Shown here piece by piece: positions 2,537 through 46,600 of a stretch of DNA of 64,000 nucleotides. The notes beneath the pieces are model-generated. The model was not told the DNA's origin and did no database searches. It saw only the letters and a program-made list of their open reading frames with translations. Every line of letters starts with the position of its first letter. The first letter of the stretch is position 1. The translations under genes and the position numbers were made by a program. The stretch is from Chrysophaeum taylorii (Eukaryota > Sar > Pelagophyceae > Pelagomonadales > Pelagomonadaceae), in the NCBI GenBank assembly GCA_029834535.1, contig JAQMWT010000427.1, positions 1 through 64,000 on the forward strand, written 5' to 3'.

Positions 2537-2686
2537 GATTAAGTAAGTTGAGTTTGTTGACCCTGTCCTGCTCCGTTCTCTCGGATTGGGGCGGGGGTTT
2601 TTGTTAAATATTGTTAAGTATAAATCTCAAGTCCATCGAACGTTATTGTCTTGAATTGTTTGAGATCACTAAAAACTGAAAAAGAT

Positions 2687-4216: not shown

Positions 4217-4337
4217 ACTTAGTTAGTTGAGTTAAGTTGTAGAGCCCCGTCGGTTTATTCGGCGGGGCTTTTATTTTATCGGTCAGATTAATGCCTGGCC
4301 TTTGCTAATTTTAACCACAAATATTAACCCAACACAT

Positions 4338-5728
4338 ATGAATGACTTGGTATAGCGCAATCCCTCAAGAACCTGGGCATTGAAGAAAAGAATTAAGGCA
4401 CCTCAACCGGTTCACAATGGCCGGAGAGTGGGGCAGCAACAGTACCTCTTTATCCCCCGCTGACTGAAAAGTGATCGGAACGACTCAGTTTACCGATGAC
4501 ATTGGTTTCTTATGAGATGGGCAAATCTCTTCAGGAAGGGCTAGGTGAGGTTCAGGAAATGATTGACATCTGTGATTTTGCAGTCGGATTTCAGACAACT
4601 TTATGGGCTAAGTATGCCTCCGAGCGTCCAAATCATAGAATTACGAGCAGTATCACCCTTTGGGACTTGTTGGTATTATTTCAGCATTTAATTTTCCGGT
4701 AGCGGTTTGGTCCATGGAACGCCGCCATTGCCTGGGTGTGTGGCGATGTATGCATCTGGAAACCCAGTGAGAAAACACCATTGACCGCAATTGCTTGCCA
4801 AAGGATTGCGGCAGAAGTTTTTGCAAAGAATGAAGTCCCCGAAGGGGTAAGCTGCCTGGTGATTGGAGACGCCTCAATAGGACAAAAAATGTCAAATGAT
4901 AGACGAAATACCCTTGGTTTCAGCTACAGGCTCTACACGCATGGGCAAGGCTGTAGGAGATCGGTAGGTAAGCGTTTAGGGCGAGCATTGTTGGAATTAG
5001 GAGGTAACAACGCCATCATAATTTCTGACAAGGCAGATCTTGAAATGTCACTTATTGGTGCTGTGTTTGGTGCCGTAGGCACCTGTGGACAACGTTGTAC
5101 GTCAACTCGAAGATTGATCATTCACGAGAGCATATTTGAGGAAGTAAAGCAAAAATTGGTGAGCGCTTTGGCCAATTAAAAATCGGCAACCCACTTGATG
5201 AATCTAATCATGTGGTCCCTTGATTGACAAGGACGCCGTAGAAACATACGCCAGAGCCCTGGAAGCGTTGAAGTCAGAGGGTGCTAATCCGGTGGTAGAA
5301 GGGGAAGTTCTTTGGGCTCATCGTATGAATCCGGCTGCTATGTTAAACCAGCCATTTACGAATAGAAACACAATTACAAAATGGTTCAGTCAGAAACCTT
5401 TGCACCCATTCTTTACCTGATAAAGTATTCGGAATTGACGAAGCCATAGCGATTCAAAATGATGTGCCTCAAGGTCTTTCGTCAGCGATCATGACCGGGA
5501 TATGAGGGAGTCTGAACTATTCTATCCCATTCCGGCTCGGATTGTGGCATTGCCAATGTCATATAGGCACTTCCGGTGCGGAAATAGGTGGTGCTTTTGT
5601 GGTGAAAAAGAAACCGCGGAGGAAGAGAGTCCGGTTCGGAGCATGGAAATTTACATGCGTAGACAGACCAACACCATTAATTATGGTCAGGTCTGCCCTT
5701 GGCCCAGGGGATCAAATTTGAGCTTTAA
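4338..5728 (+). CDS. ALDH7-type aldehyde dehydrogenase (bacterial segment, frames broken)
   Basis: Successive frames give a near-complete aldehyde dehydrogenase: [48 protein letters not shown], the NAD-binding [25 protein letters not shown] with the general-base Glu, and the catalytic Cys in [13 protein letters not shown]. These long blocks match the ALDH7 group (alpha-aminoadipic semialdehyde / piperidine-6-carboxylate dehydrogenase), which oxidises the semialdehyde formed in lysine breakdown. About 510 residues are expected; the segment length suits that. The last third is the most damaged. Substrate is inferred from subgroup resemblance only. Confidence 0.8.
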
Positions 5729-5992
5729 ATTCAAGAAAGCGTCAGAAGTACCACACTGATCAAAGCCATTGTAATAAAAATGAGAAAGTCGGTGGTGGCG
5801 ACGGTCTTTATATTTTTATACTTCGCATAACCGGAATATTTCGAGTTGATAAACAAAAGTTACGCAGTACTTCTTTACGATTGGTCTAAACTGTATTAAC
5901 GTTTTATTAAGTTGACAAAACTCCACGTGAGAGGCAAAAAACACCGGACCATAAAATGGTCCGGCCACAGTTATAGTCACATATAAGGGTTG

Positions 5993-7873
5993 TTATTGTG
6001 CGCCTTTGATGATTTGGTCCACAACTTCGGGATTGAGCAAAGTAGAGGTATCACCCAGTTTTGAGGTGTCATTCTCACCACCTTTCTTAAAATTCGACGC
6101 ATGATTTTTCCGGATCTTGTTTTGGGCAAGCCCGGTACGATCGTATTTTATCCGGCTTGGCGATCGGTCCAATGATCTTGCTTACTGTACTTCGAATTTC
6201 ATTCTTGAGGTTTTCCTCCGTACGATTGGACATATCACATATCACATAGGCATAAATACCCTGTCCTTTGATGTCGTGTGGGTAGCCAACAACGGCTGAT
6301 TCTACGCCATTGGATGTTCATTGATGGCATTTTCAACCTCAGCAGTACCCATTCTATGACCTGATACGTTGATCACGTCATCCACGCGTCCGAGAATTCT
6401 GTAGTAGCCGTCTTCATCCCTCTTGCAGCCATCACCAGTGAAGTACATACTTTGTAAGTTGCAAATACGTTTGCCTGCAGCGCTCATTGGTCACCATAGG
6501 TAGTCCTAAGCATCGATGGCCAGGGAAGCTGATACACAAATTACCTTGCACGCCGTTGCCCTTCAACTCTTTACCATCGGCATCAACAATTACAGGTCTT
6601 ATGCCAGGTAGAGGTAGTGTCGCATATGCCGGCTTGGTTGGGGTTAAGCCCGCTAATGGTGAAATCATGATACCTCCGGTCTCCGTTTGCCACCAGGTAT
6701 CAACGATGGGCATTTGCCTTTGCCAATATGGTCGTGGTACCAGTGCCAGGCCTCTTCGTAAAGGTTCGCCAAACCGTGCCCAGTACTTTTAAAGAATCCA
6801 ATTTATAAGGTTCTAGTGGCTCCAATCCGCAAGCTTCCAGTGCCCGGATAGCTGTCGGTGCGGTGTAAAAGATTGACTTGATATTTGTCGCATATAGCCC
6901 AGACCTTTCCCGGTTCAGGGTAAGTAGGCACACCTTCGAACATGATAGTAAGTCGCACCGGCCAGAAGCGGGCCATAAAGAATATAGGAGTGGCCGGTGA
7001 TCCGCCTACGTCCGCTGTACACCAGTAGACATCATCACTACCGTATTGAAATACATTTTGAAAGGAAAACTGGGTGTACACCATATATCCTCCTGTGGTA
7101 TGAACTACACCCTTGGGTTGACCTGTCGAGCCCGATGTGTAAAGGATGAAAAGCATGTCCTCGGAGTCCATTACTTCCGCCTGATTGTTGGTGTCAACTT
7201 TGGCTGTTTCTTCATGCCACAGGCATCACGTCCGGGTTTCATGGTTACTTCAGTTTGTCGTTCGTAGACCACAATGACTTTTTCTATCGATGACGTTTTT
7301 TTCTAAGGCCTCGTCCACCACGGCTTTTACGGTATGGTTTTTGGCACCACGGAAAATTGCCGTCTGAGGTTAGGACCATCTTGGCTTCACATCATTGATG
7401 CGATCGGCCAATGCATTGGATGGAGAATCCGGCGAACACCACGAGTGAACGCTCCCACACGTGCGCAACCCAGCATGGCAATAGCCGCTTCTGGAACCAT
7501 CGGCATGTAGATAATGACGCGGTCTCCTTTTTGGAACTCCATTATTTTTTAGGACGTTGGCGAACTCACACACTTTTTCATGCAGTTGAGGTAGGTGAGT
7601 GTGATGCCCTCTTCATTGGGGTCATTGGGTTCCCAGTATAGCAGGCTTATCACCTATGTGAAAAGGTGGTCTTTCCAGGATATTTTCAGTGAGAGTCAGT
7701 TTAGCATTCAGAAACCACTTACTTCTGGCTTTTCAAAGTCCCATTCAACGACTTTGTCCACTTTTTACCGCCAGTAGAATTGATTGGCCACCCGCTCCCA
7801 AAAGGTTTCGGGATGGCTATGCTCTTTTCGTAAGCAAGGTAGTATTCGCTTATGTTTCAATTTTTGTCAACAT
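5993..7873 (-). CDS. acs: Acetyl-CoA synthetase (bacterial segment, frames broken)
   Basis: On the minus strand the pieces read as an AMP-forming acetyl-CoA synthetase from N- to C-terminus: [13 protein letters not shown], the P-loop-like [52 protein letters not shown], then [27 protein letters not shown] and the lysine-bearing C-terminal region. The enzyme activates acetate to acetyl-CoA in the cytoplasm. About 630 residues are expected and the span fits. The gene is convergent with the ALDH7-type gene. Several small indels break it; the A8 hinge and core motifs are still plain. Confidence 0.88.
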
Positions 7874-8031
7874 GTGCACATAATTAATTCGTCTTGAACT
7901 AAAGTTAAATTTTTTCCCTCAGGGCATGCAACATTCGCCGAATTACACTTAACGACGCTAGGCGATCAATAAGGATCTGGTGATCCTTTAGAACAGTAGT
8001 TTATTAGATTTGCACACCTCAAATGACAACC
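7874..8031. promoter_or_regulatory. Divergent intergenic region acs / purM
   Basis: The acs and purM starts face away from each other over about 160 AT-rich bases, so both promoters should lie here. I see no operator or riboswitch that I can name. Confidence 0.3.
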
Positions 8032-9190
8032 ATGAACAGCGATACATGCAGCGTGGGGTTTCGGCCTCCAAAGAGATGTCCATAATGCCATTAAGAACAT
8101 CGACAAGGGCATTTTTCCAAATGCTTTTTGCAAGATTGTTCCAGACTTGTTGGGTGGGGATGAAAGCTACTGCAACATCATGCACGCAGATGGTGCAGGC
8201 ACCAATCCGCACTGGCTTATAATATATTGGAAAGAGACCGGCGATCTCTCCGTATGGAAAGGAATCGCACAGGACGCAGTGATCATGAATACTGACGATC
8301 TACTTTGCGTAGGTGCCGTGGATAATATATGCTGTCTTCAACAATTGGACGCAACAAAAACCCATTCCCGGTGAGGTACGTACCGCTTTAATAGAAGGGA
8401 CAGAAGAGGTGCTTCAGATGCTTCGCGACAACGGGGTAGACATTAGATCAACTGGGGGTGAAACTGCCGACTTAGGAGATTTGGTAAGAACGGTCGTAGT
8501 CCGATAGCACGGTGATCGGCCGGATGAAAGGACGATGTCATCACCAACGCAAATATCCATCCGGGTGACGTCATTGTGGGTCTGGCTTCCTATGGTCAGG
8601 CGACCTATGAGACTGTGGTACATGGTGGTATGGGAAGCAAACGGTCTCACATCGGCGCGGCATGATGTATTCGCCAAAAATACATGGATAAGTATCCTGA
8701 GTGCTTCGACCCAGCTGTGCCCGAAGATTTGGTTTATTCCGGGTCAAAAGATTTGTTAGACACCGTAGAAGCTCACCATTGGATGCAGGCAAGTTGGTGC
8801 TGTCACCAACTCGAACCTATGCCCCGATCATCAAAAAAATATTTGATGAAGGTCTCCGTTCACAAATCCATGGAATGATTCATTGTAGTGGAGGTGCCCA
8901 AACCAAAGTGCTGCACTTTGTCAATAATGTTCACATTATTAAGACAACCTTTCGAAATTCCACCTTGTTTCAATTGATCCATGAAGAAAGCGGTACAGAC
9001 TGGAAGGAGATGTACAAGGTCTTCAATATGGGACATCGGATGAACTGTATGTGCCTCAGGACATTGCACAGACTTTGATTGATAATTTCTCAATCATTTG
9101 GTGTGAAGGCTAAGGTCATAGGCCATGTCGAAGAATCAAGGACTAACAGCTCACCATTAGATCATCAAACAAAGTTTTGATTACGCTTAG
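8032..9190 (+). CDS. purM: Phosphoribosylformylglycinamidine cyclo-ligase (AIR synthetase; bacterial segment, frames broken)
   Basis: The gene reads [11 protein letters not shown] near the start, then [42 protein letters not shown], the long block [35 protein letters not shown] and [14 protein letters not shown]. These are signature blocks of PurM, which converts FGAM to AIR with ATP in step five of purine synthesis. The HADGAGT and [11 protein letters not shown] blocks contact ATP and metal. About 385 residues are expected, as found. The frame changes several times. The 3' end runs toward the convergent alpha/beta hydrolase gene, leaving only about 15 bases. Confidence 0.88.
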
Positions 9191-9206
9191 TTATTCCTTA
9201 GAAAAC

Positions 9207-9910
9207 TCACGCAAGCTCTAAAACGACTTTTTTGGATTGGGTTCCAGCACCATGTGACCCGTTTCGGGCATGATGAGCAGCGATGATTTAGGCATGGATC
9301 GGCACATTTCTACCAGCTTGGTAATATCAATAACGTTGTCACTGTCACCACCGATGATCATCGTTGGCGTGTCAATCATGTTAAGATCCTCTTTTGACAA
9401 GTTGATGACATAATTGAGTTTGGGGTTAAACAATGCCCTGATCTGATCTTCCCCTCCAAAGTGCGTGACAGCAAGATAATCTTTGAATCTTTAGGCATGT
9501 CGTCCTATTTATAGGACGGAGGCCTCTCGACCATCATATTGATAACTGGGCGCTGATCAGCATCATCTTGTCTATTCGATCGGGTTGTGTTTTGAACCAA
9601 TTCGAGTAAAACGAGTCCACCAAAGCTAAAACCAATGACTTTCGCACTTTGAATGTCAAGAGCATCCATAAGGCCACTACATCCTGTGCGTCTGTTGTAT
9701 GGAAAAAGAATTATCTAGCGGAGAACTTTTGCCATGTCCTCTTAAATCCAAGGTATAGACCGAGTAGCAAACACGAAATGGTTGACATATCACTCCAAAA
9801 CTGAGAAGACTGTGTCCACCGTGGAGCAGGATCAGGGGATCCCATACTTGCACTTCGTAGTACAGATCAATACCATTGACTTCTATAGACTTACCCGGCC
9901 AAAGCTGCTG
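9207..9910 (-). CDS. Alpha/beta-hydrolase (bacterial segment, frames broken)
   Basis: Minus-strand pieces give the alpha/beta-hydrolase plan: IEVNGIDLYYEVQ, the oxyanion block LILLHGG, a LDLRGHGKSS strand, the nucleophile elbow AKVIGFSFGGLVLLEL, the acid-bearing strand DTPTMIIGGDSDNVI and the catalytic His in MPETGHMVLEPNPKK. This is a soluble hydrolase of about 260 to 280 residues, likely an esterase-type enzyme of unknown substrate. The nucleophile Ser lies in GFSFGG. Frames are interrupted like the neighbours; the upstream end is approximate. Confidence 0.75.
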
Positions 9911-10009
9911 CCTTGATGAAGTAGGACAAAAGAGATTACTATGAATAAGGGGATTCAGTTGGCCAATTAATGAAACAAAAAAAGGAAGCCCAGGACTTCC
10001 ATTTTTTGT

Positions 10010-10082
10010 GGGAGCATATCGGAGTCGAACCGATGACCTCTACGCTGCCAGCGTAGCGCTCTAGCCAGCTGAGCTAATGCCC
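10010..10082 (-). tRNA. tRNA-Ala (GGC)
   Basis: The reverse strand folds as a cloverleaf: D arm GCTCAGCTGGCTAGAGC, anticodon stem CTACG/CGTAG with loop CTGGCAG (anticodon GGC), and T arm ATCGGTTCGACTCCGAT. One G appears to be missing at the 5' end of the acceptor stem (GGGCAT where GGGGCAT pairs with ATGCTCC), in keeping with indels in this segment. It is the last intact bacterial feature before the junction. Confidence 0.88.
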
Positions 10083-10169
10083 TGTGAATGGAGGGCAAAT
10101 ATATTTATTTCTCTGAAATAAGTTGCTCATGCATTTGCGGCTCTTCATTCTTTTTCTAGCTTGGCAGCT

Positions 10170-10335
10170 TTGTGCGGCATCACAGGTATTGGTCTTTTAC
10201 CGAAACGGGTCGTCCGTGATGGGCACCTGGTGAAACCGGCCACCTTATCCCTGGCACACCGGGGCCGGAGCGACATGGGCATGTTCAGCGGATCACCAGG
10301 TCGATTGGGCACAGTCGCCGGTTGTCGCGTATTCG
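10170..10335 (+). CDS. Start of an asparagine-synthase-like glutamine amidotransferase, cut off at the junction
   Basis: The frame reads CGITGIGL directly after a TTG that stands where the start Met is expected, then LAHRGRSDMGMFS. These match the N-terminal glutaminase domain of asparagine synthase (B) enzymes: nucleophile Cys2 in MCGITGI and the AHRGPDD motif. In the other frame IGHSRRLS resembles the next conserved block (LGHRRLSIID). Everything after about 10,340 fails to continue the family. The gene is therefore broken off where bacterial and algal sequence meet. The family call rests on three short motifs. Confidence 0.5.
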
Positions 10336-10345
10336 AGAAAGCTCA
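10325..10345. other. Probable chimeric junction between bacterial and algal sequence
   Basis: Bacterial coding similarity stops inside the asparagine-synthase-like gene at about 10,335. No bacterial gene can be recognised after this point, and no algal gene before it. The exact base cannot be fixed by eye. Confidence 0.55.
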
Positions 10346-12185
10346 GAACAACGTTGAAGTTCCTTCGGTGGTTGACATTGCAGGAAATCGGGTAAGTGAA
10401 ACTGTCAACAAAATCGAGGTCTGAAGAACTACAACACAAGCGCCTGGGATGACGTGCGTTAGACGATTGTTGCAGCGGGGCAAAGATAGCGGAAACACAG
10501 GCTGGTACATATGATGGCGGTGTACCAGACGTCTGATGAGAACGTTGCCTTTGGGCAGATAGGCTGCATGGTGCACGGTGACCAGGTTATGACGATGGTT
10601 GGAGTCGACAGAAGCAAAAATAGGCGTAAGCAGGTTTGATACGAACGTGGGTGTTTGGTTGTTGTGGTGCGAGCAAGTTGCCATGGGCACGACCGCGTCC
10701 TGTAAGCGAAGATGGAAGACTTCGGACGCGCCAGCGGTGTAAGGAACGAACACAGGTAGACACACGTATGCAAGCCAGCTGTGACACCGGCCCAGTGACG
10801 ATTTTCGCAGTCGCAAGAACGAAATTGCCATATGGGCCAACGTGGGAGCAAGCGGCGAGCTTCGCTTGTCATACTCGAATAGGCTGCGGTAGAAGTTGGA
10901 GACAGTGGCAAAACAGTTGTGGCACGTAAGAACGTTGCAGATAGCTTGCAGATAGCGTCGCGGGTGCTGAACACGGAATTCACGTCGATAGCAAAACCGA
11001 ATTTTAAAGGTCAGAAAAGCGGCGAAAAAGCGATAGTGCGTGAAGGAGAACCACAAATCACACAGCAAAGAAGCGTCTGTCCAGGATCCCGAAGAGCGAT
11101 AGATCCACATAGGAAGCACGAAAACTGCGCACGCGAAAAATTGAGAGGCACAGCTTAGTTGTGGCAGGTGAAAATGTGCGATGGAACGTGATTCACTGGT
11201 TTTACCAAAACCGACAAGCACAACGAGGAGTGGATCAACGAATAGCTGAAAATGCACAACGGGGAGTGGAGCAACGAATAGGCGAAATACAGAACGAGGA
11301 GGGGAGCAACGACGAGGTGAAAAGACAGAACGAGGAGAGGAGCAACGACGAGGGGAAAATACAGAACGAGGGGCTGAGCAACGAATAGCGGAAAATACAG
11401 AACGAGGCGCCTGTGCAATGGGAGCTAAAAAAAAAAAACGAGGGGCTTCCGTGGGATGGGGTTGTTGATGTGCTTGCATCAGACATTCGGCGGTACACAC
11501 GCTGACTTGGAATTATCTTGATTGGCAGAAAGGTGCAAAGATGTGTAATAGGTGGTGGTATTAAGAAAAGCGGCGGAGTGGAACTAGAATCAGTCAAGGT
11601 TGGAGTAGGCATAGGAGCAGAAAAGGTAGTGTTACTGGTGGTTTTGGTGGGTTGGTGTTGTAACAGTTGTTGGGTGTTGTTGGGTGTTGTTGGAGTCATT
11701 GGAAGTGTTGCGCTGTTGAGAAGAACGGCGATGGTGGGTAGGGCGTTGTCGTGGAATAGCTAGGAACTTTGAAACTTGCGGCAGTCCCCCTTAAAGTGAT
11801 CCTTGCAGCCGCCAAAAGGACATCGGGTAGTGCGTCGGAATCGAGCAGAGCCAGGTTGTTGGGAAAGGGGAGCGTCTAGGGTAGGTCAGTTGGAAGAGTC
11901 TGAAGTCGTGGTTGACGACGCGGCGGATAGCGCGGCGGAAGTGGTTGTGCATGCCATCGAAATTGATTGTTGTTGAACTACTCAAGGGTAGAACCACATT
12001 CATCGTTGTTGTTGAACTTCTCAAGGGTAGAGCCACATTCATCGGTACGAAACGCGAGACGATAAAACAAAGCCAGTAAGGCTTGAAGCACGATGCACGT
12101 AGTCAAATGCGAACATGTGAGAACTGAAATGGGGATGAGAGAACTGTAATGGGGACGTGGTGCAGGGGTAAGTGTCATAGCTTCC
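10346..12185. other. No recognisable gene; intermediate base composition
   Basis: Both strands hold open frames, the longest on the minus strand from 11,500 to 10,343 (385 codons), but its sequence is dominated by the translated tandem repeat at 11,222-11,405 and shows no domain. Composition is less GC-rich than the later algal DNA. I cannot say whether this belongs to the alga, the bacterium or a third source. Confidence 0.4.
11222..11405 (+). repeat. Five-unit tandem repeat, about 36 bp per unit
   Basis: Five diverged units begin AACGAGGAG or AACGGGGAG and end GAAAATACAG or close variants (starts near 11,222, 11,258, 11,293, 11,329 and 11,365). The unit is close to 36 bp, so it stays open in frame and produces a false coding signal on both strands. 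Confidence 0.75.
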
Positions 12186-26652: not shown

Positions 26653-26768
26653 GGCGAAGAAGAAGAAAAAATGAATGGGGTTCGCCTTGTTGCGCGCTCG
26701 TTCAAGGGTTTAGGAAAGACTAGTGCTGAGGGCATTTTTTTTTTCAAACGGACCGACGCCCCCGTAGT

Positions 26769-26792
26769 CCTAACTACTAATCGACAGATGTT

Positions 26793-26827
<35 letters not shown>

Positions 26828-27607
26828 TTGTCCCTCGATTTAGGGTAAGGATCAGGTAGGCGCGAGAGTAAGGATCAGGTAGGCGTGAGAGAGCCAGACA
26901 GTGATCCTCCAAGCCGTCTACGGCGACCTCGCAGACTATTTCCACGAGCCGCGGCGGCTCTTTCAGCGCGCCATTCTCACGCCCCGTCGAAACGATGTTG
27001 TCGATGCTGACAACGCGCGCATGACCGCGGACATGATCGATCGTGTCGTTGTCACCGAGGCTCCTCCAACCTGTATCCCGTAAGGCCCGCCGACGCCAAA
27101 CGATCACCAAGAGCCAGGGCCAGACGCCCCGCGAGGTCGGCGTCCTCTTGGCGAAGCCCGTCTTCTGCCACGTCCAGCTCTACGTGGCTCTCTGTCGATC
27201 GGCAACCCCGGGGATATCCTCTTCTGAGTCGACGACTCCACCCTACCCCACACGTGCTGCGCAATACCGATAAGCCCCCTCCCGGAGTCTACACGCGCAC
27301 TTTAAGTGAACTTACTGGGACCACTTTGAGATTGGGACTAGGTGAACTGAGTGACCAGGTGAAACTGGGACCAGGTGAACATACTGGGGTTTTTAGAGTA
27401 AAGGGTTTTAGAGTAAACTCAAAGGTTGGCGGCGCGTGCGGATCAAAGCAGCTTAGATTGGCGGAGGCGAGAGCGACGAGCTCAAAGGAGTTGGTGTGAG
27501 CTAGGTGAACTTACTGACCAGGTGAACTTATACGAAACTTACTGGGACCAGGTGAGCTTACTGGGGTTAGAGATTGGGAGTAGGTGAACTTACTGGCCTG
27601 CACTTGT
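26769..27607 (+). mobile_element. Helitron-like fragment, copy 2 (internally deleted)
   Basis: It starts CCTAACTACTAATCGACAG and ends CCTGCACTTGT, immediately joined to copy 3. It holds ILQAVYGDLADYFHEPRRLF with QRAILTPRRNDVVDADNAR (helicase motif around IV/V), then a direct jump to MIDRVVVTEAPP and the TITKSQGQTPREVGVLL block. The roughly 200-base middle part with RNLDP...CNGTR, present in the other four copies, is missing. The 3' part is the GTGAACTTACTGG minisatellite. It is a non-autonomous remnant. Confidence 0.75.
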
Positions 27608-28644
27608 CCTAACTACTAATCGACAGATGTTTGTCTGTCTGTCTGTTTGTCTGTTTGTTTGTCCCTCGATTTAGGGTAAGGATCAGGTAGGCGCGAGAGT
27701 AATGATCAGGTAGGCGCGAGAGCCAGACAGTGATCCTCCAAGCCGTCTACGGCGACCTCGCAGACTATTTCCACGACCCGCGGCGGCTCTTTCCACGCGC
27801 CATTCTCACGCCCCGTCGAAACGATGTCGTCGATGCTAACAACGCGCGCATGACCGCGGCCTTTTTTTCCCGGAGACGAGGCGTCGGAGTTCTTTTCGGC
27901 TGACTAGGCTGGGTCGGAAGACGACGCCTCGCTCTTTACAGTAGAGTTTTCAACTCCCTGACAACCAACGGCATGCTTACTTTGATCGCGAGCTTAATGT
28001 CTTCGCAACCTCGACCCGTCGCACGGCCACTGCAACGGTACCAGATACGTGATCGATCGTGTCGTTGTCACCGAGGCTCCTCCAACCTGTATCCCTTAAG
28101 GCCCGCCGACGCCAAACGATCACCAAGAGCCAGGGCCAGACGCCCCGCGAGGTCGGCGTCCTCTCGCCCAAGCCCGTCTTCTGTCACGTCCAGCTCTACG
28201 CGGCTCTCTGTCGATCGGCAACCCCGAGGATATGCTCTTCTGAGTCGACGACTCCACCCTACCCCACACGTGCTCCGCAATACCGATAAGCCCCCTCCCG
28301 GCGTCTACACGCGCACTGTAGGTTAACTCACTGGGACCAGGTGAACTTACTGGGGTTTGAGATTGGGACTAGGTGAATATAGTGACCAGGTGAGCTTACT
28401 GGGACCAGGTGAATTTACTGGGGGTTTTAGAGTAAAGGGTTTTTAGAGTAAACTCAAAGGTTGGCGGCGCGTGCGGATCAAAGCAGCTTGGATTGGCGGA
28501 GGCGAGAGCGACGAGCTCAAAGGAGTTGGTGTGAGCTAGGTGAACTTACTGACCAGGTGAACTTATATGAAACTTACTGGGACCAGACCTAAACTTACTA
28601 GGGTTAGAGATTGGGAGTAGGTGAACTTACTGTCCTGCACTTGT
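27608..28644 (+). mobile_element. Helitron-like fragment, copy 3 (head-to-tail with copy 2)
   Basis: 1,037 bases from CCTAACTACTAATCGACAG to CCTGCACTTGT. It follows copy 2 with no spacer. It carries VYGDLADYFHDPRRL, NLDPSHGHCNGTRYVIDRVV and TITKSQGQTPREVGVL in different frames, that is, the C-terminal half of a Pif1-type helicase, plus the 3' minisatellite. The sequence on its right (TCGTTACTATC) starts with T, and the base left of copy 2 is also T. Insertion between two Ts, as for the Helentron/Helitron2 group, is therefore possible. Confidence 0.75.
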
Positions 28645-32502: not shown

Positions 32503-32766
32503 GCTCGTCGCGCGCCGTGCTGCACACAGGCCGCAGGCGTGGGGAGCCGTGTCGTGACCTCTTTAGTTAGTTTTATTTATACTACCGCGGCGGCGCACTT
32601 GCTGTAAGCGTCGTCGTCGCCGTCGTCGTCGTTGGTGATTCGTTCCTTTATTCGCAAGGAGCCGTGCGTCCTATTGCGTGAAGCAACTAGCCGCGCGGCA
32701 CTCTGCTGACTGCACTGTGGACGACGTGAACAACGTAGGGTAAAAGTTTGAGGTTTGGTTTCTTAT

Positions 32767-33828
32767 CCTAACTACTAATCGACAGATGTTTGTCTGCCTG
32801 TCTGTTTGTCTGTTTGTTTGTCCCTCGATTTAGGGTAAGGATCAGGTTGGCGCGAGAGTAAGGATCAGGTAGGTGCGAGAGCCAGACAGTGATCCTCCAA
32901 GCCGTCTACGGCGACCTCGCAGACTATTTCCACGACCCGCGGCGGCTCTTTTAGCCAGCGCGCCATTCTCACGCCCCGTCGAAACGATGTTGTCGATGCT
33001 GACAACGCCGCGCGCATGACCGCGGCCTTTTTTTCCCGGAGACGAGGCGTCGGAGTTCTTTTCGGCCGACTAGGTTGGATCGGAAGACGACGCCTCGCTC
33101 TTTACAGTAGAGTTTTCAACTCCCTGACAACCAACGGCATGCTGACTTTGATCGCGAGCTTAAAGTCTTCGCAACCTCGACCCGTCGCACGGCCACTGCA
33201 ACGGTACCAGATACATGATCGATAGTGTCGTTGTCACCGAGGCTCCTCCAACCTGTATCCCTCAAGCCCCACCGACGCCAAACGATCAACAAGAGCCAGA
33301 GGCAGACGCCCCGCGAGGTCGGCGTCCTCTTGCCCAAGCCCGTCTTCTGCCACGTCCAGTTCTACGTGGCTCTCTGTCGATCGGCAACCACGAGAATATG
33401 CTCTTCTGAGTCGACGACTCCACCCTACCCCACACGTGCTGCGCAATACAGATAAGCCCCCTCCCGGCGTCTACACGCGCACTATAAGTGAACTTACTGG
33501 GACCACGTGAACTTACTGGGGTTTGAGATTGGGACTAGGTGAATTGAGTGACCAGGTGAAACTGGGACCAGGTGAACATACTGGGGTTTTTAGAGTGAAC
33601 GCAAAGGCGAGCGGCGTGTACGGATCAAAGCAGCTTAGATTGGCGGAGGTGAGAGCGACGAGCTCGAAGGAGAGTGGGGTGAGTGGATGTGAGCACGAGT
33701 GGGCTTACACCGAATTTACTGGGGTTAGAGATTGGGACTAGGTGAACTTAACGGGAACAGGTGAACTTACTGTGGTTAGAGATTGGGACTAGGTGAACTT
33801 ACTGGCGAACTTACTGGCCTGCACTTGT
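32767..33828 (+). mobile_element. Helitron-like fragment, copy 4
   Basis: 1,062 bases from CCTAACTACTAATCGACAG to CCTGCACTTGT. Helicase remains in order are VYGDLADYFHDPRRL, RNLDPSHGHCNGTR and TINKSQ with EVGVLLPKPVF. The 3' part has diverged GTGAACTTACTGG units and a GTGTACGGATCAAAGCAGC stretch shared with copy 5 (GTGCGGATCAAAGCAGC in copies 1-3). Copies 4 and 5 are therefore closer to each other than to the rest. It is joined without spacer to copy 5. Confidence 0.75.
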
Positions 33829-34883
33829 CCTAACTACTAATCGACAGATGTTTGTCTGTCTGTCTGTTTGTTTGTTTGTTTGTCCCTCGATTTAGGGTAA
33901 GGATCATATAGGCGCGAGAGTAAGGATCAGGTAGGCGCGAGAGCCAGACAGTGATCCTCCAAGCCGTCTACGGCGACCTCGCAGACTATTTCCACGACCC
34001 GCGGCGGCTCTTTCAGCGCGCCATTCTCACGCCCCGTCGAAACGATGTTGTCGATGCTGACAACGCGCGCATGACCGCGGCCTTTTTTTCCCGAAGACGA
34101 GGCGTCGGAGTTCTTTTCGACCGACTAGGTTGGGTCGGAAGCCGACGCCTCGCTCTTTACAGTCGAGTTTTCAACTCCCTGACAACGGCATGCTGACTTT
34201 GATCGCGAGCTTAAAGTCTTCGCAACCTCGACCCGTCGCACGGCGACTGCAACGGTACCAGATACATCATCGATAGTGTTGTGTCACCGAGGCTCCTCCA
34301 ACCTGTATCCCTCAAGCCCCACCGACGCCAAACGATCAACAAGAGCCAGGGCCAGACGCCCCGCGAGGTCGGCGTCCTCTTGCCCACAAGCCCGTCTTCT
34401 GTCACGTCCAGCTCTACGTGGCTCTCTGTCGATCGGCAACCCCGAGGATATCCTCTTCTGAGTCGACGACTCCACCCTACCCCACACGTGCTGCGCAATA
34501 CCGATAAGCCCCCTCCCGGCGTCTACACGCGCACGGTAGGTGAACTTACTGGGACCAGGTGAACTTACTGGGGTTTGAGATTGGGACTAGGTGAACTTAG
34601 TGACCAGGTGAACTTACTGAGACCAAGTGAACATACTGGGGTTTTTAGAGTGAACGCAAAGGCGAGCGGCGTGTACGGATCAAAGCAGCTTAGATTGGCG
34701 GAGGTGAGAGCGACGAGCTCGAAGGAGAGTGGGGTGAGAGGACGTGAGCACGAGTGGGCTTACACCGAACTTACTGGGGTTAGAGATTGGGACTAGGTGA
34801 ACTTACTGGGGCCAGGTGAACTTACTGGGGTTAGAGATTGGAACCAGGTGAACTTACTGGCGAACTTACTGGCCTGCACTTGT
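33829..34883 (+). mobile_element. Helitron-like fragment, copy 5 (abuts UNG)
   Basis: 1,055 bases with the same termini. ILQAVYGDLADYFHDPRRLF and QRAILTPRRNDVVDADNAR are in one open frame, followed in other frames by NLDPSHGDCNGTR and TINKSQGQTPREVGVLLP. The right end (TGT at 34,881-34,883) lies 42 bases before the UNG start codon, and the next base is T. The tandem pair 4-5 mirrors pair 2-3. Confidence 0.78.
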
Positions 34884-34925
34884 TTGATTTTAAACGAGTC
34901 GTAACGAGTCGTGTGGTTGGCCAGC

Positions 34926-35729
34926 ATGTCGCAGCCGAACATCACGTCCTTCTTTGGAAAGCGGCGCGGGGAGGGCGAGGAGTCGGAGGCGAAGAAGGCC
35001 AAGGTGAACCGCGAAGCTGCGGTGTCACTGTTGTCGTCGTTGACGTGCGCGGAATGGCGCGCTGCGCTCGAACGAGAGACCGAGAAGGACTACTTGTCGA
35101 GGCTCGCCGAGTTCGTCGAGAAGGAGCGCGGGAAGGGGCCGGTGTACCCGCCAGCCGAGAGCGTGTTCGCCGCGCTGAACGCGTGCCCGCTGAGCGCGGT
35201 GAAGGTCGTCGTGGTGGGCCAGGATCCGTACCACGGACCGGGCCAAGCCCACGGCCTCGCGTTTTCGATCGCGAAAGGGGCGCGCTGCAAGTTCCCGCCG
35301 AGCCTCCGCAACATCTTAGACGAGGTGAGCGACGACGTCAAAGCCTCCAAGTCGTCGGGTGGCGACTTGATGCCGTGGGCAGAGCGCGGAGTGCTGCTCT
35401 TAAACGCCGTCCTCACGGTTCGAGGCGGCGCCGCCAACTCGCACCAGAACAAGGGCTGGGAGCGCTTCACCGACGCTGTCATCAGCGCGGTCAACACTCG
35501 ATGCCCCGGCGTTGTCTTTTTGTTGTGGGGCAAGCCAGCCCAGACGAAGTGTGCCAGCATAAACAAGAAAAAGCACCGCGTCCTTGCCTCCTCCCACCCC
35601 TCGCCCCTCTCCAACACTAAAACCAAATCTCCATTCACCGGCTCCCGCTGCTTTTCCAAGTGTAACGACCTCCTCCTCACCGACCTCGGCCACGACTCCG
35701 CCGTCAACTGGGACCTTGCGCCCGAATAA
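34926..35729 (+). CDS. UNG: Uracil-DNA glycosylase, family 1, with PCNA-binding motif
   Basis: 267 residues from MSQPNITSFF. The catalytic water-activating Asp is in VVGQDPYHGPGQAHGLAFS (about residues 97-115). PPSLRNI, GVLLLNAVLTV, NSHQNKGWE and the leucine-loop HPSPLS follow in the normal order. It removes uracil from DNA in base-excision repair. QPNITSFF at residues 3-10 is a PIP box (QxxIxxFF), as in nuclear human UNG2, so nuclear action at replication forks is likely; this motif is also why I prefer the second ATG to that at 34,911. The promoter must overlap Helitron copy 5. Intact and intronless. Confidence 0.95.
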   Translation: MSQPNITSFFGKRRGEGEESEAKKAKVNREAAVSLLSSLTCAEWRAALERETEKDYLSRLAEFVEKERGKGPVYPPAESVFAALNACPLSAVKVVVVGQDPYHGPGQAHGLAFSIAKGARCKFPPSLRNILDEVSDDVKASKSSGGDLMPWAERGVLLLNAVLTVRGGAANSHQNKGWERFTDAVISAVNTRCPGVVFLLWGKPAQTKCASINKKKHRVLASSHPSPLSNTKTKSPFTGSRCFSKCNDLLLTDLGHDSAVNWDLAPE

Positions 35730-35893
35730 TAATAACAAACAAACAAACAAACAAACAAAATAAGTAACTAACTAACTAACTAACTAACTATGCCCGCCAC
35801 CACGCGCGTTGTCGGCATCGTCCCGGGCGATCTGGGGCGCGCGTCATGGAGGTGTGGGAGCGGGGCTGTCAACGCGTCTCTAGAAAATCACTA
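35730..35893. other. Convergent 3' region with tetranucleotide repeats and a possible SECIS-bearing UTR
   Basis: It holds (ACAA)n at 35,735-35,758 and (CTAA)n at 35,766-35,790. On the minus strand, the 3' UTR of the SELENOM-like gene contains an ATGA at 35,844-35,847. A 7-bp stem partner pair follows (35,838-35,844 with 35,802-35,808, 29-base loop). This could be part of a SECIS hairpin, but I cannot place the 3' GA of the core. Confidence 0.3.
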
Positions 35894-36199
35894 CTACAGT
35901 TCGGACCGCGCAAAGCCCTTCTCCTTGAGCAGCCCGTGGATCTCGTCCGTTTTCATCGTCGAGAGGTCAATTCGCTCGATCTCCTCGCCCGCATCGTCCA
36001 TGATGACGAGGTCGGGATTGTGGCCGCGGATGTACTCCACCTCGAGGTCCTCGTAGCTATCGGCGTGTCCCTCGGTCTTCACGAACGTCTTGACCTCCGG
36101 GAGCTTGTTCAATTTTCAGCCGCTGCAGGTTTCAATCTTCCCCTTGACGCCCAAGGCGACGGCGAACAAGGTCGAGAGGAGGAGGAGGACTCGCATCAT
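35894..36199 (-). CDS. Selenoprotein of the SELENOM/SELENOF (Sep15) family, in-frame UGA read as Sec
   Basis: Reading through TGA at 36,116-36,118 gives one 101-residue protein: MMRVLLLLSTLFAVALGVKG (ER signal peptide), then ETCSGU at residues 23-28, then LNKLPEVKTFV, YIRGHNPDLVIMDDAG and a C-terminal IDLSTMKTDEIHGLLKEKGF. The CxxU redox motif followed at once by LxxLPEVKxFV, and the xYIRGxxPxLV block, are diagnostic of the SELENOM/SELENOF thioredoxin-fold family, which acts in ER redox control. The C-terminal RSEL resembles an ER-retention signal. Start chosen at the first ATG of two adjacent ones. Sec decoding needs a SECIS in the 3' UTR, not confirmed. Confidence 0.88.
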
Positions 36200-36462
36200 T
36201 ATTCTAGAAGAACTTTTCTGGATAAGGGTAAGTTTTACTCTCGCGGAAGAGGATGCAAGGGTCACGTTATTCATTCAATTCAGGAAGCGAGCGAACTCGC
36301 TTCTCGAAGACCACACACGTAGAAGGAGTAAAGGGGACCTGCGCCGTGCAGGGTCGGACCGGCGTTGGTTGATCGCTTCAGTCGTCGGAGGTTGTCGAAG
36401 TTGTCGCAAGCACCGAGTCATGGCGGGAGGCAGCGATGTCCAGCACCGGTCCACGAGGAGCA

Positions 36463-36759
36463 TTAGCCTCAGCCGCCGGCAACGCAGCCTTTCGGAGCGG
36501 ACGAAAGGTCGCGCATCCCGCGGACCTTCTTGGTGCCGCCGCCGCCGCCGGCGCCCGGGGGGCCACCACCCCCGCCGCTGCCTCGCCGTCTCGGGGGGTC
36601 GCGACGTCGGAGTGAGTGGTGGGAACTTTCGGGGTTGATCATCGTGTCAACGAAAAACCAAAAGAAATCGAGGATCGCCCACACAAAGTCGGAGATAATA
36701 CTGAGCCGCCACGGCGACCGTCGCTCGACGAGCGTTCCGTCTGAATTGAGATAAACCAT
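36463..36759 (-). CDS. SELENOK: Selenoprotein K, Sec as penultimate residue
   Basis: 98 residues when the TGA at 36,469-36,471 is read as Sec. MVYLNSDGTLVERRSPWRLS and a membrane helix (SDFVWAILDFFWFFVDTMI) match SELENOK, followed by the usual Gly/Pro/Arg-rich cytosolic tail. The end reads GCVAGG-U-G-stop (TAA at 36,463-36,465); animal SELENOK ends GGUGR, so the UGA sits exactly at the family's Sec position. It is an ER membrane protein linked to ERAD and palmitoylation in animals. The SECIS should lie in the 263 bases before the SELENOM-like gene; an ATGAC at 36,417-36,421 (minus) is one candidate core. Identification is firm. Confidence 0.93.
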
Positions 36760-37293: not shown

Positions 37294-39666
37294 CTATACG
37301 ACACCGATGGCCTTTAAAATCGTGTCGTACCAGTAGGGGGTGTAGAGAATACTGACGTCGTAGTCTCGTCGCTCCATCTCGGCCCATTTGGCCTTGAGGA
37401 AGTCCGGGGTGACGTCGCTCCAGTTTCGCACGAGGATGGTCGGGAGCTTGGCGAGGAGGTTGCGGCGGTAGGCGTAGGCCGTGTCGTCCAAGACGGGAAT
37501 GGCCCCTGCGACGAGGGCCTCGTACTCGCGGTAGCATTGCTCGCCAACACCGTTGGGCGAAAAGACGAACTTGCTGGTGGCCATGAGCACGGGCATGTGG
37601 GCGTCGTAGCTCCCGGTCATACCCTTCTTGTTGCCGTAGCGTTCGTTCAACATGAGGATAACCTCGTGCTCGATTTCGTGAAGGCCCGGGTCGTTTTTGG
37701 GACGACCTATGTGGTGGAACTGGTAGTCTTGGCCGAGAGGACAGTCGAATTCTGGATGAAGCGCGAGAATTTTGGTGTGCTCCATGCGTCCCTTGTGCAT
37801 GCCGTCGACGTTCATGCAACAGCACAGGAGCAAGCGATCGCGGCGCGGGAGGCTCCTCGAGAGGTCGGGATGTTCGAGGAGTGCCTGCCAGAGAGAGACG
37901 CCTCTGACCCCGATGACGCGCTCGACGACGCGGCCCGCGTGCTCCTCGGACACGGGACCGTTGTCGACGTTGTTCGCGAGGAAGAGCGCGAGGCGGTCGC
38001 CGAGGTGTCGCCCGGGCAGCCACTTGCGCGGGTCGAAGACGTCGACAACAACCTTCCGCGACTCGCGCAGCGCTCGAACGCAGGGGAACTTCTGCGCGTC
38101 TTTCTCAAAAACTCTCTTGCTGTTCGGGAGGGTCACGCCCCGCGGCGGCAGCATTTTGTCGTCGGGCTGATAGTGGTACAAGCTCGCGATGGTGGCGTTG
38201 AGGGAGCGCGGCCGCAGCGACGGCGACAAGTGGCAGCCGGTCATCGCGTGGAGCCGCACGTCGGCGACGGCGCCGACGAGGTGCGGGTGGACGAGCATGT
38301 TGAGGAGGGGGTCGATTCCGAGGTCGCCGGTGTCGGGGTTGTGCGCAAAGTACCCCAGCGTCTCGGGCTTGTCTTGGATGTGGCTGTTCTGAAACCGGAT
38401 GTTGTCGGCGAGGCGGGTCGACTCTAGCCAGTACGACACGCAGCACCGGAAGCAGCACTTCAACCGTCGGTAGGGCGTCCGGAAAGGGACGGCGGCGCGC
38501 AAACAATTCCGGGGAGCGGGGGCTTTCGGGCACGTCCGCTCGATCGGCGAGCACTCCTCCTCCTCCTGCAGGCAGCTCTCGATGCCGCGCTTCGACTGGG
38601 ATGCCGCCGGCAGTTCCTCCGCGACGGGCGGCGCCGACGCGAGCCTCCGTTCCCTCGAGGACCAGAAGACGGGACGCGCATCCCCAAAGCCGCCGCCGCC
38701 GCCGCGAATGCACGCGTCGTCGTAGCCGTACCTCGCGCCCATCTCCAAAAACTCGTCGACGGTCGCGGGACCGTCGATGCCGGGCCCGAACGTCGCCGCC
38801 TCGAGGTGGGCGAGCCCGAGGAGGGTCGTCGCATCGCGTCGGTGATGGTGAGTTGCGTTATTGTTCGCCCTCGCGGCCTCGCGGGCGCGGTCCTCGCAAG
38901 TCGTGGCGAATTTCGGCATCTTGGCAGCAGCGAACGTGCACAACCTGGCTCCGAGAGAAGCGTTGGCCGCGAGGTCCTCGACCCTCATCCGTTCGTCGGC
39001 GTAGCGCTCCGCGTGTTCGTTCCAGGCCACGTAGGTCGAGAGGGCCCACCCCACGCGTTCCTCGAGGGTGGTCTCGCAGTCGTACGCGGCCGCGCAGGGG
39101 GTCGTGATCGGGGGGGAGGCGGTCACTTTTTCGACGAACCGCGCGACCGGAGCGTGAGGCCGGAGCAGCGAAGCGATCGCGCGAAGCGGACACCTCACCA
39201 AATGGACCACGCGCAAAAACTTTGGCTTGAAGGCGTTTTCGATGTCGACGCGGTTCATGATCGGCCGCAGCTGCCACCATTTCGTGCGCTCGCCGCTAAA
39301 CGGGTAAGGAACGCCGAACGCGAAGTCGTTCACCGCGTGAGTCCACGAGACCGTCGCGTGCGCGTCGTACGTCTCGTGACCCGTACGAAGGCCCATGAGC
39401 GACATCAGGTGCGCGACGGCGCGCGTCCCGACGCCCGCGGTCCCGGTGACGAGGAGCGGCAGGACGTCGTATGCCGTCCTCGGGCCAGGCATGCACGTCC
39501 GATTCAGCCGCCGCGAGAAGATGTACCGGTCGCATTCCCGAATCTCCGTCTTCCACCCGCGCTTTTCGAAATTCGAAAGCAGCTTTTCGTTGTGGAACCA
39601 CCGCGGCACGCGCGACACGTTCAGACCGCCGCACGCCGCCACCCACCACCACCACCACCACCGCAT
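37294..39666 (-). CDS. Sulfotransferase–exostosin-like glycosyltransferase fusion, secretory
   Basis: 790 residues. It begins MRWWWWWWVAACGG, a signal anchor with a Trp run from a TGG repeat. Residues about 68-310 look like a P-loop sulfotransferase: LLVTGTAGVGTRAVAHLMSL is the PAPS 5' loop, GHETYDAHATVSWTHAV follows, and VVHLVRCPLRAIASL (153-167) is the 3' loop. After a Cys-rich linker, the C-terminal half resembles GT47/RXYLT1-type transferases: MATSKFVFSPNGVGEQCYRE, EALVAGAIPVLDD and LPTILVRNWSDVTPDFL. Domain order is the reverse of the fusion at 18,219. Likely role: building and sulfating a secreted or surface glycan. Intact frame. Confidence 0.78.
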   Translation of the reverse strand: MRWWWWWWVAACGGLNVSRVPRWFHNEKLLSNFEKRGWKTEIRECDRYIFSRRLNRTCMPGPRTAYDVLPLLVTGTAGVGTRAVAHLMSLMGLRTGHETYDAHATVSWTHAVNDFAFGVPYPFSGERTKWWQLRPIMNRVDIENAFKPKFLRVVHLVRCPLRAIASLLRPHAPVARFVEKVTASPPITTPCAAAYDCETTLEERVGWALSTYVAWNEHAERYADERMRVEDLAANASLGARLCTFAAAKMPKFATTCEDRAREAARANNNATHHHRRDATTLLGLAHLEAATFGPGIDGPATVDEFLEMGARYGYDDACIRGGGGGFGDARPVFWSSRERRLASAPPVAEELPAASQSKRGIESCLQEEEECSPIERTCPKAPAPRNCLRAAVPFRTPYRRLKCCFRCCVSYWLESTRLADNIRFQNSHIQDKPETLGYFAHNPDTGDLGIDPLLNMLVHPHLVGAVADVRLHAMTGCHLSPSLRPRSLNATIASLYHYQPDDKMLPPRGVTLPNSKRVFEKDAQKFPCVRALRESRKVVVDVFDPRKWLPGRHLGDRLALFLANNVDNGPVSEEHAGRVVERVIGVRGVSLWQALLEHPDLSRSLPRRDRLLLCCCMNVDGMHKGRMEHTKILALHPEFDCPLGQDYQFHHIGRPKNDPGLHEIEHEVILMLNERYGNKKGMTGSYDAHMPVLMATSKFVFSPNGVGEQCYREYEALVAGAIPVLDDTAYAYRRNLLAKLPTILVRNWSDVTPDFLKAKWAEMERRDYDVSILYTPYWYDTILKAIGVV

Positions 39667-43099: not shown

Positions 43100-43573
43100 C
43101 TACCTCGTGTGGTTTGTTGTTGTTCTTCTTGGAGGCGGCGCCCAGTCGCGGTCATTCTGTTTCCACTGAGGAGGGGCATCGCCGTCGACGTAGGACTCCT
43201 TCTTCCAGATGGGCACGGTCGCCTTGAGCTCGTCGATGAGCCACGCGCAGGCCTCGAGGGCGTCCTTGCGGTGCGGCGCGCTCACCGCGATGACCACCGA
43301 GGCCCCCCCGATCGGAACCTCGCCGGTCCGATGGAGGATCGCGCATTTCTTCACATCCCACCTCTCGCGCGCCAATTCGCAGAGCCGCCGCATTTCCTTC
43401 AACGCCATCGGCCCGTAGGCCTCGTAGCTCAGCTTGGCCACCGTCTTGTCCTCGAAGGTGTCCCGCGTCACGCCCACGAAGGTCGCGATCGCTCCACACG
43501 CGGGATCCCCCACGAAGGCCTCGGCCTCGCGACTCTCGATGGGTTGATCGCTCAGCCGCACGTGGTCATCCAT
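43100..43573 (-). CDS. MOCS2B: Molybdopterin synthase catalytic subunit (MoaE/MOCS2B)
   Basis: 157 residues from MDDHVRLSDQPI. Family blocks are all present: AIATFVGVTRDTFEDKTVAKLSY-type N-terminal strand (split here for brevity), HRTGEVPIGGASVVIAVSAP, HRKDALEACAWLIDELKA and VPIWKKE with the conserved active-site Lys. MoaE forms a heterotetramer with MoaD and adds two sulfurs to cPMP to make molybdopterin. The open frame continues 187 codons upstream on the minus strand, but those codons are antisense to the GIGYF-like gene, so the shorter start is right. Divergent promoter of 98 bp. The MoaD partner is not in the window. Confidence 0.93.
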   Translation of the reverse strand: MDDHVRLSDQPIESREAEAFVGDPACGAIATFVGVTRDTFEDKTVAKLSYEAYGPMALKEMRRLCELARERWDVKKCAILHRTGEVPIGGASVVIAVSAPHRKDALEACAWLIDELKATVPIWKKESYVDGDAPPQWKQNDRDWAPPPRRTTTNHTR

Positions 43574-43671
43574 GCTCTTATTCAACGGATATTTTTCCGA
43601 AGAGACCCGTCGGAAGAACGGATAGAAACGGGTATCGTGTCGCTGAGAGAGAGCAAGCGCTGCACAACAGC

Positions 43672-46600
43672 ATGGCGAACGTCGAAACGAAGCGATCATT
43701 TGGCCCGGCCTGGCGCAAGGACGGGGGGAGTTTCGGGACACCCAAGACCGAGGCCCCCGAGGGAAACACCCCGTCTTCTTCTTCTTCTTCGGGCCCGCGG
43801 CCCGCGCCCCCTCGGCAGACAACGGGGGCCTGGGCCAACGGCTCGTCATCCCAACACATCGCGTCGGCGGCGCGGCGGCCTCCGGCGGCGACCACCTCGG
43901 CTCCATCTCCTGGAGGAGGAGGAGGAGGAGGAGGAGGAGGAGGACAAACGGGTCTGGCGCCGACGAACTCGAGGAGTGCGCACCTGGCGCCGGAGCAAGG
44001 CTCGTCGAGCAAGTCGGTTCCGCCCCTCGCTTCGGCAGCTTCCAAGCTCCGGGCCGCCAACCTCTCGACCTACCACGACCGCCGCGACGACCGATCCAAC
44101 TTTCAGCAGCAAGTCCCGGCTCCGGCGCCCGCACCCCTCAACATACCGCGGCGCCTACCGAAGCGAAAGTTCGACAAGGCCCAACTCCTCGCGCGCCGCG
44201 AGCCGACCGAGATGCTCGAAGGAGTGCGAGCGAGCGTGCCCCGCGAACTCGTCTCCTTCGACGCCCTCGACCCCGTGTGTGCGCGCGAGAGACCCTCTAC
44301 CGACGAGATCGCCGCCCTCTGGGAGGCGAGCCGTCCGAGGCCTCTAGACAGGGACGACGCCTCGCGACCCCCGCACGACGACCAAGCCAAGCGATTCTCG
44401 CCCCTCATGAAGCCCTCCACCCTCGAAAACCGCCGCAACGACCGCGGCCCCCCCGTCGGGCGTTGGGAGCGTGGCCTCACGGTGCCGCGCGACGACGCCG
44501 ACAAGCTCTGGGACGAGATTGAGCCGGACTCTGATGCCCTCGGCGACGACTCGTCCGCCCTCGCGAGCTGGTCCGAAGCCGCGCAGGCCTTTGAGCGCGA
44601 GATGAAGGCCATACGCGACGCCCAAGCCAAGGGCTTGCCTCTCGACTTGCCGGACGGAGCCTCCATCGGCAGCCCCGACATGTTCGGCGCCGCGATGACC
44701 TCGGACCCCGCCGCCGCCGCCCCCGAATCTACGACCGTTCGCCCGGAACGCTCGCAGCAAGCGTCTGACGCAATCAAGGCCCTCGAGGCCGCGACCAACG
44801 CGCACCGCTCGCGCCTCCAACCCTCAGACACAACCACCGACCCCGACCTCCTTCACCGGGAGCCGGCTACTCGGCTGGATGCGGCCGCGGTTCGACGACA
44901 AGAGGCCGCGGTTCGGCAACAAGAGGCCGCGGTTCGGCAAGAGGCGGCGGTTCGGCAAGAGGCGGCCGCGCGACAACAAGAGGCGGCGGTTCGGCAAGAG
45001 GCGGCCGCGCGACAACAAGAGGCGGCGGTTCGGCAAGAGGCGGCCGCGCGACAACAAGAGGCGGCGGTTCGGCAAGAGGCGGCCGCGCGACAACAAGAGG
45101 CGGCCGCACGACAAGAGGCGGCCGCTCGGCAAGAGGCGGCCGCTCGGCAAGAGGCGGCCGCTCGGCAAGAGGCGGCCGCGCGACGGGAGGCGGCCGCGCG
45201 ACGGGAGGCGGCCGAAGAAGAGGCGCGGCGACGAGATGAGGCACGACGACGCGAGGAAGAACGGCAGCGCGCTTTACTCCTCCCGTGGTACTACCGCGAC
45301 CCACAGGGTGACATCCAGGGCCCGTTCGATGCGTCGCAGATGCGGCAATGGTTCGATGCCGGGTACTTCACCAACGATTTGCCCCTGCGTCAGGGCGACG
45401 GCCAGGGCCGCTTCACTGCCTTGGGCATCCTCTTCCCCTCAGCGGCCGACGCCTTTCTCGCGCGCGCGAATCCCGCGCCACCACCCGTCCCCCGCGACCC
45501 CCCCACAGTCGAGGCACCTGCTGCGGCCGATCCTCTCGCCGGCCTTACGTCACTCCTCGCCGACGGCCAGCTTCCCGGTCGTGCTCAGGGACCGACCGAG
45601 GCGCCGCAATCGCAGCCGCAACCGCAGCAACAACCGATTGGGAACGGCGCGTCGAGCTTCTCGTGGATGTGGCCCGGCGGTACGGACACCTCTCTGCCCG
45701 CGAACGGCGCGACCATAGCCGACGAATCTGACCCGCCCGTCGTCAACGACAACCTCCTCTCCGGCTGGCGGGGATCAGGCTCGGGCGCGCTGGACGTTGG
45801 CGGCCTCGGCGCACTCGGCGGCGCGCTTTTCGAGCCGCCGGTGCCCGCGCCAGAGCCGGCGCAGCGCAAGCCTGGCCGAGTCGAGCTCCACCAGCCGCAT
45901 GACTCCCTTGCGAGTAAAGGCCCGGCCGACGCGAGCGGGCTCGCGCTCGGCGCGTCTGACTCGCCGCTCGCGCTCAAGATGATGCTCGGGGTGGGTGGCG
46001 CGGGTGTGGTTATCGACGACCCGCGGCAGCAGCCGCGTGCCGAGTTGCCTCAGGAAGCGCAGCAGCAGCAGCAGCAGCAGCAACCGGATCTCGTGGCGCC
46101 CCCAGCGCCTCAGCCACAGCCGCAGCAGAAGAAGAGCAAGCAGAACGCGCAGCAACGTCAGCGCCAGGACGCGACGCAGAGCCCTGATGGAGCGCCGTCG
46201 GCGCCCATGTCGCGACGAGCACAGCGGCGACAAGAGGCAGCGGCGGCCGCAGCCGCGGCCGCGGCACAGCAGCGGCAGCAGCGGCAGCAGCAACAGCAGC
46301 AACAGCAGCAACAGCAGCTACAGCAGCTACAGCAGCTACAGCAGCTACAACAGCTACAACAGCTACAGGTTGCGAACGAGAACAGCCAGAACGCTGGGAA
46401 TGTGGTGGGCCATGCGCCGCGAGCAGAGCCGCAGGTTCAGACGAAGCCGCCGGCCCGGCACACGGCGCGCGCCCCGTGGGCTCAGGCGTCCCTCGAGCAA
46501 CAACAGGCTCTACTCATGCAGCAGCAGCAGCAGCAGCAGCAGGCCTCCAAGCTAAGTATCCGCGAGATCCAGCAGCAGGAGGAGGCGGCGCGCGTCGCCG

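Follow-up and report, generated by a model that had tools for sequence, protein, structure and literature searches.

The minus strand of the analysed window, a stretch of 64,000 nucleotides from Chrysophaeum taylorii, very probably encodes a selenoprotein from the Sep15/SelM family at positions 36199 to 35894. We read it, with high confidence, as an intact and intron-free SELENOM in which the UGA at codon 28 would be decoded as selenocysteine (Sec) through a SECIS element in the 3' untranslated region (UTR), and as the downstream member of a pair of selenoprotein genes in the same orientation. The upstream member would be SELENOK, using a SECIS of its own, and 263 nt separate its stop codon from the ATG of SELENOM on the same strand. 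Introns are required by neither gene. A standard open reading frame (ORF) caller truncates both proteins, SELENOM to 72 residues without the redox centre and SELENOK by its last two residues, and the gene pair very probably means that the organism makes use of selenium.

The SELENOM coding sequence (35894..36199, minus strand) is a single exon of 101 amino acids with the stop codon TAG, exactly at the position and on the strand proposed in a first-pass annotation of this DNA. With TGA read as U, it translates as MMRVLLLLSTLFAVALGVKGKIETCSGUKLNKLPEVKTFVKTEGHADSYEDLEVEYIRGHNPDLVIMDDAGEEIERIDLSTMKTDEIHGLLKEKGFARSEL*, where Sec is residue 28. The corresponding TGA (36116..36118) is the only one in the frame, and the ORF list splits the gene around it, into a 52-aa ORF that ends at the TGA and a 72-aa ORF after it (35894-36112). 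The hydrophobic N-terminal leader MMRVLLLLSTLFAVALG (36149..36199), a probable signal peptide as judged by eye, the CSGU motif and the LNKLPEVKTFV segment all occur in one frame, as had been claimed. Furthermore, the Pfam profile Sep15_SelM (PF08806) matches the read-through protein with an E value of 7.2e-26 (90.5 bits, with a cut-off of 26), and the match, which covers residues 21-96 of the protein and positions 2-75 of the 75 in the profile, runs across the TGA. The GC3 amounts to 0.89 on the 5' side of the TGA and to 0.86 on its 3' side, and to 0.77-0.88 in other genes of the window. The normal family length that had been attributed to the protein holds in that nearly the whole Pfam domain is covered, but not for the complete chain, 101 residues facing the 129 residues of the SelM chain, which is matched at 15-94. 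The single Cys codon of the gene lies within the redox motif, and the C terminus, RSEL, seems from its sequence to resemble a retention signal of the KDEL type. No close relatives of SELENOM were found in IMG/VR, in GTDB genomes or in phage records, and NCBIfam, which serves the annotation of bacteria and archaea, gave no match with either the SELENOM or the SELENOK protein.

The comparison with solved structures allowed us to choose between the two names that had been offered for this family member. In the PDB search, SelM (2a2p) was matched with an E value of 1.4e-16 (63.6 bits) and Sep15 (2a4h) with one of 3.6e-6 (30.2 bits), and the third and last match, a ribosomal protein at 0.36, is noise. 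The TGA of SELENOM aligns with the last residue of the CGGC motif in 2a2p, a Cys that presumably stands for the Sec of the solved protein. Homology to 2a2p suggests a thioredoxin-like fold; the single-sequence AlphaFold2 model, with a mean pLDDT of 54.4, is too poor for a comparison of folds. Both SELENOM and SELENOF are described as endoplasmic reticulum (ER) proteins with a thioredoxin-like fold and a CxxU or CxU centre (PMC10668967, PMC10650576). The hallmarks of SELENOF, namely, the CxU motif and the Cys-rich N-terminal domain, are absent from the protein examined here. Of the two Sep15/SelM names, the evidence thus favours SELENOM rather than SELENOF because of the CxxU motif, the ranking of the PDB matches and the lack of a Cys-rich N-terminal domain; the combination of CxxU, leader and RSEL end likewise places the protein with SELENOM.

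The upstream neighbour had escaped the first-pass annotation. The SELENOK coding sequence (36463..36759, minus strand) is a single exon of 98 amino acids with the stop codon TAA, and its ORF (36759-36469) comes to an apparent stop at a TGA (36469..36471), the second-to-last sense codon, which precedes GGC TAA. Read-through of this codon yields the end ...CVAGG-U-G. Mammalian SELENOK ends with AGGUGR. The Pfam profile SelK_SelG (PF10961) matches residues 2-81 with an E value of 6.4e-19 and, since this match stops at residue 81 of 98, the Sec site lies outside it. The PDB search with SELENOK returned 20 matches with E values from 0.014 to 8.9, none of which is named SelK, and the two alignments that were inspected correspond to Gly-rich stretches. 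The next gene upstream on the same strand (37294-39666, 790 aa) matches the C-terminal domain of RXYLT1 (E 5.7e-7).

It had been argued that a stop would hardly fall by chance exactly at the Sec position of the family, and this argument is strengthened by the Pfam match across the TGA of SELENOM, by GC3 values that are even on both sides of it and by the second family-specific TGA in the adjacent gene. A chance stop was rejected, as the TGAs of SELENOM and SELENOK each stand at the Sec site of their family and the family match continues through that of SELENOM. Moreover, eight further ORFs with a Pfam match in the window (UNG, RXYLT1-like, aldolase, sulfotransferase, GAPDH, RPN7, CCCH-RING and TPR) contain no in-frame TGA, against 62 TGG and 78 TGC/TGT codons. 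The GYF ORF, also free of TGA, was left out of this count because its N-terminal part overlaps the antisense MoaE frame, and it was kept among the nine control ORFs of the SECIS scan described below. A single Sec-site TGA in each of the neighbouring genes, and the absence of any from the eight others, therefore exclude both a chance stop and a wholesale reassignment of UGA. A genome-wide change of the code to Cys or Trp, without any role for selenium, would read CSGC and AGGCG in the case of Cys, but it is contradicted by these codon counts, and we consider its probability negligible. It is also conceivable that the two TGAs are sequencing or assembly errors for TGC or TGT in genes of the Cys type, each being one base away from a Cys codon in a single, unreplicated sequence. 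Nevertheless, two independent errors would be needed, both hitting precisely the Sec column (1 of about 100 codons per gene), the 78 Cys codons of the eight ORFs are accompanied by no in-frame TGA and SELENOK is followed by a predicted SECIS, which together make such errors highly improbable.

The window holds 1,514 in-frame TGAs in frames free of TAA and TAG, 48 of which passed a filter that keeps only C..U, U..C, C.U and GGU/CU motifs and certain lengths. When all 48 read-through frames were scanned with Pfam, three were matched, namely, SELENOM, SELENOK and the MoaE frame, in which the TGA precedes the entire domain, and no third selenoprotein was found among these 48 frames. The filter is narrow in motif and length, and an atypical or spliced selenoprotein could therefore escape it. 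The MoaE (molybdopterin synthase) frame (43103-44137, minus strand, E 6.2e-41) is antisense to a long GYF-domain frame on the plus strand. One tRNA, a tRNA-Ala, was identified by ARAGORN in the window.

Both strands of the window were scanned for SECIS elements, defined by an AUGA...GA core, a hairpin forming helix II and a helix I close by, and AUGA SECIS-like hairpins were obtained at 24 AUGA positions (25 rows). Such a hairpin lies within 300 nt past the stop in both selenoprotein genes (46 nt in SELENOM and 41 nt in SELENOK) and in none of the nine control ORFs. The predicted SECIS of SELENOK (36354..36452, minus strand, with the AUGA at 36421-36418) is convincing as modelled, combining AUGAC, an apical CAACU, CGAC on the 3' side and a long helix I. 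The 99-nt element has a z score of -4.56, and none of 200 shuffles was as stable; for the 121-nt stretch, whose predicted native fold comes close to the SECIS, the z score is -2.89 and one of 200 shuffles was as stable, and for an 81-nt piece without the lower stem the corresponding values are -0.68 and 51 of 200. The energy of the fold forced into the SECIS lies at most 0.6 kcal/mol from the minimum. Shuffled UTRs scored like this element in 0 of 400 cases with an ATGA core, in 1 of 400 with any NTGA core and in 0 of 400 with NTGA together with the AA/CC rule. With AA/CC demanded and any NTGA core accepted, it is sixth among the 37 candidates of the window, of which three combine ATGA with AA, and it is the most stable of these three. 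The Rfam SECIS models, run permissively with E values up to 10 on the 3' UTRs of SELENOK and SELENOM, gave no match. The TGA at the Sec site of SELENOK, together with a good predicted SECIS, constitutes the strongest support for the decoding of UGA as Sec in this genome.

The short distance between the UGA and the predicted SECIS in SELENOK is, in our opinion, the most interesting detail of the locus. Counted from the UGA, pairing in the predicted stem begins after 16 nt and the AUGA is reached after 47 nt, whereas the minimum spacing between UGA and SECIS is quoted as at least 51-111 nt (PMC8659212); the spacing predicted here is under that minimum. Promotion of Sec insertion has been reported for a separate stem that SelS carries 9 nt past the UGA (PMC3628699), and a review assigns that stem no positive role (PMC8659212). 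Whether the SelS stem promotes insertion or has no positive role, a stem adjacent to the codon therefore does not by itself forbid recoding.

As regards SELENOM, the annotation had proposed a SECIS in the 3' UTR, and the proposal stands as far as an AUGA...GA hairpin 46 nt past the stop is concerned, but not for the apical AA/CC, which is absent from it. The candidate (35791..35868, minus strand, with the AUGA at 35847-35844) has AUGAC...CGAC, a good helix I and an apical AG. SECIS elements are said to require unpaired adenosines or cytidines at the apex (PMC3328465), and no candidate of the AA/CC type was detected in 35960-34900. The hairpin is the minimum-energy fold of the 78- and 86-nt pieces and lies 1.7 kcal/mol above the minimum in the 106-nt piece; it is no more stable than its shuffles (z +0.71, +0.97 and +1.31), and the centroid favours a competing CGCGCG stem. 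It ranks eighth by energy among the 25 AUGA candidates of the window, and shuffled UTRs matched it in 21 of 400 cases with any NTGA core and in 1 of 400 with ATGA. These features could be those of a decaying gene which has lost its SECIS and in which UGA now terminates translation, the candidate being devoid of the apical AA/CC and thermodynamically unremarkable. Yet the frame is intact, the family residues are kept on both sides of the TGA, the GC3 is like that of other genes and the AUGA/GA hairpin occurs at the expected place, so we hold decay to be very unlikely and retain the reading of SELENOM as an intact selenoprotein gene.

The uracil-DNA glycosylase gene UNG (34911..35729, plus strand; Pfam UDG PF03167, E 2.7e-17) is convergent with SELENOM, and the 164 bp between the two stop codons hold the start of the SELENOM 3' UTR. 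When the apical rule was dropped, the scan up to 1.4 kb past SELENOM gave nine SECIS candidates. Seven of them have their TGA antisense to the UNG coding frame, two with a much stronger helix II (-18.9 and -20.9 kcal/mol), and the SECIS of SELENOM may overlap UNG. The other two lie inside the 164-bp gap and are the hairpin described above and a large-looped one whose TGA is at 35871. The former is favoured on account of three features, an ATGA core, a helix I of -19.4 and the place it occupies, and we regard it as a candidate that is probably the SECIS of SELENOM according to the folding predictions. Some predicted selenoproteins of plants and algae are likewise reported without a predicted SECIS (PMC6627142).

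On this basis, the SECIS of SELENOM would most likely start about 25 nt past the stop, with the AUGA at 46 nt, and at both UGA codons SBP2 and eEFSec would supply the ribosome with Sec-tRNA. The leader would then direct SELENOM into the ER, where RSEL may retain it and where CSGU would make it an oxidoreductase of the thioredoxin fold, and SELENOK would be an ER membrane protein whose Gly-rich tail ends in Sec. It is possible to hypothesize a more elaborate arrangement, in which the two selenoprotein genes work as a functional unit and may share a transcript, the SELENOK stem serves as both recoding stem and SECIS and SELENOM uses a SECIS without apical adenosines. The double role of the stem is suggested because the SECIS begins 16 nt past the UGA, under the quoted minimum, and we consider the arrangement as a whole doubtful.

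Between SELENOK and SELENOM, a perfect hairpin of 20 nt, GAAGCGAG-TTCG-CTCGCTTC (36284..36303, minus strand), occurs as the sole copy in the window according to an exact-match search, and it could mark a transcript end or be a 5' UTR element. Elsewhere in the window, diverged repeat arrays extend over 26754-28632 and 32742-34883 with spacings near 1.0-1.06 kb; identity between the best copies, within an array and across the two, is 94-98%, and a short AGGTGAACTTACTGGGACC-like repeat lies within them. At positions 1-12000 the GC content is 41-48%, and the remainder of the window lies at 57-69%. Large low-GC regions, which were read as centromeres, are described on the chromosomes of the pelagophyte Pelagomonas (PMC9481584). 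The gene set of the window, which includes a class II aldolase, RPN7, GAPDH and a sulfotransferase, together with the GC content would point to a compact eukaryotic nuclear genome, probably that of an alga.

Algae are known to be rich in selenoproteins. Ostreococcus has been reported to possess SelK and SelM and the diatom Thalassiosira to possess two SelM and no SelK, in a study that calls SelK widespread among eukaryotes using Sec (PMC2375036), and a later algal survey lists SELENOM among the widespread families and SELENOK among the least widespread (PMC7539508). The latter survey, by Jiang et al. (2020), describes neighbouring selenoprotein genes or clusters in 13 algal species (PMC7539508), and such clusters are also described from invertebrates, where in some of them not every gene has a SECIS (PMC3473315). 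A SELENOK-SELENOM pair is not named in the main text on the algal clusters (PMC7539508), nor in the titles and abstract openings of the papers listed by a thin search, which is no proof of novelty.

Compared with the known systems, the SELENOM described here shares with its family (PF08806; 2a2p) the Sep15/SelM redox domain, the CxxU motif, the LNxLxEVKxFV segment, the N-terminal leader and a TGA at the redox-motif position. However, it carries CSGU where CGGU is printed for SELENOM (PMC10668967), and it differs from known SELENOM proteins in a shorter C terminus ending with RSEL and in a SECIS candidate without the apical AA/CC. SELENOF/Sep15 (2a4h) has the same Pfam domain but is distinguished by CGU and a Cys-rich N-terminal domain (PMC10668967, PMC10650576), different from the CxxU and the single Cys found here. 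The neighbouring gene has in common with known SELENOK (PF10961) the SelK_SelG match, the Gly-rich tail and the Sec in the second position from the end, and the locus shares with the algal clusters the proximity of selenoprotein genes (PMC7539508). SELENOM and SELENOK are thus new members of known families and represent ordinary biology, and what is unusual at this locus is the gene pair itself and the short predicted spacing between UGA and SECIS in SELENOK. This spacing and the noncanonical candidate of SELENOM offer test cases for the rules on SECIS consensus and spacing in algae and other protists.
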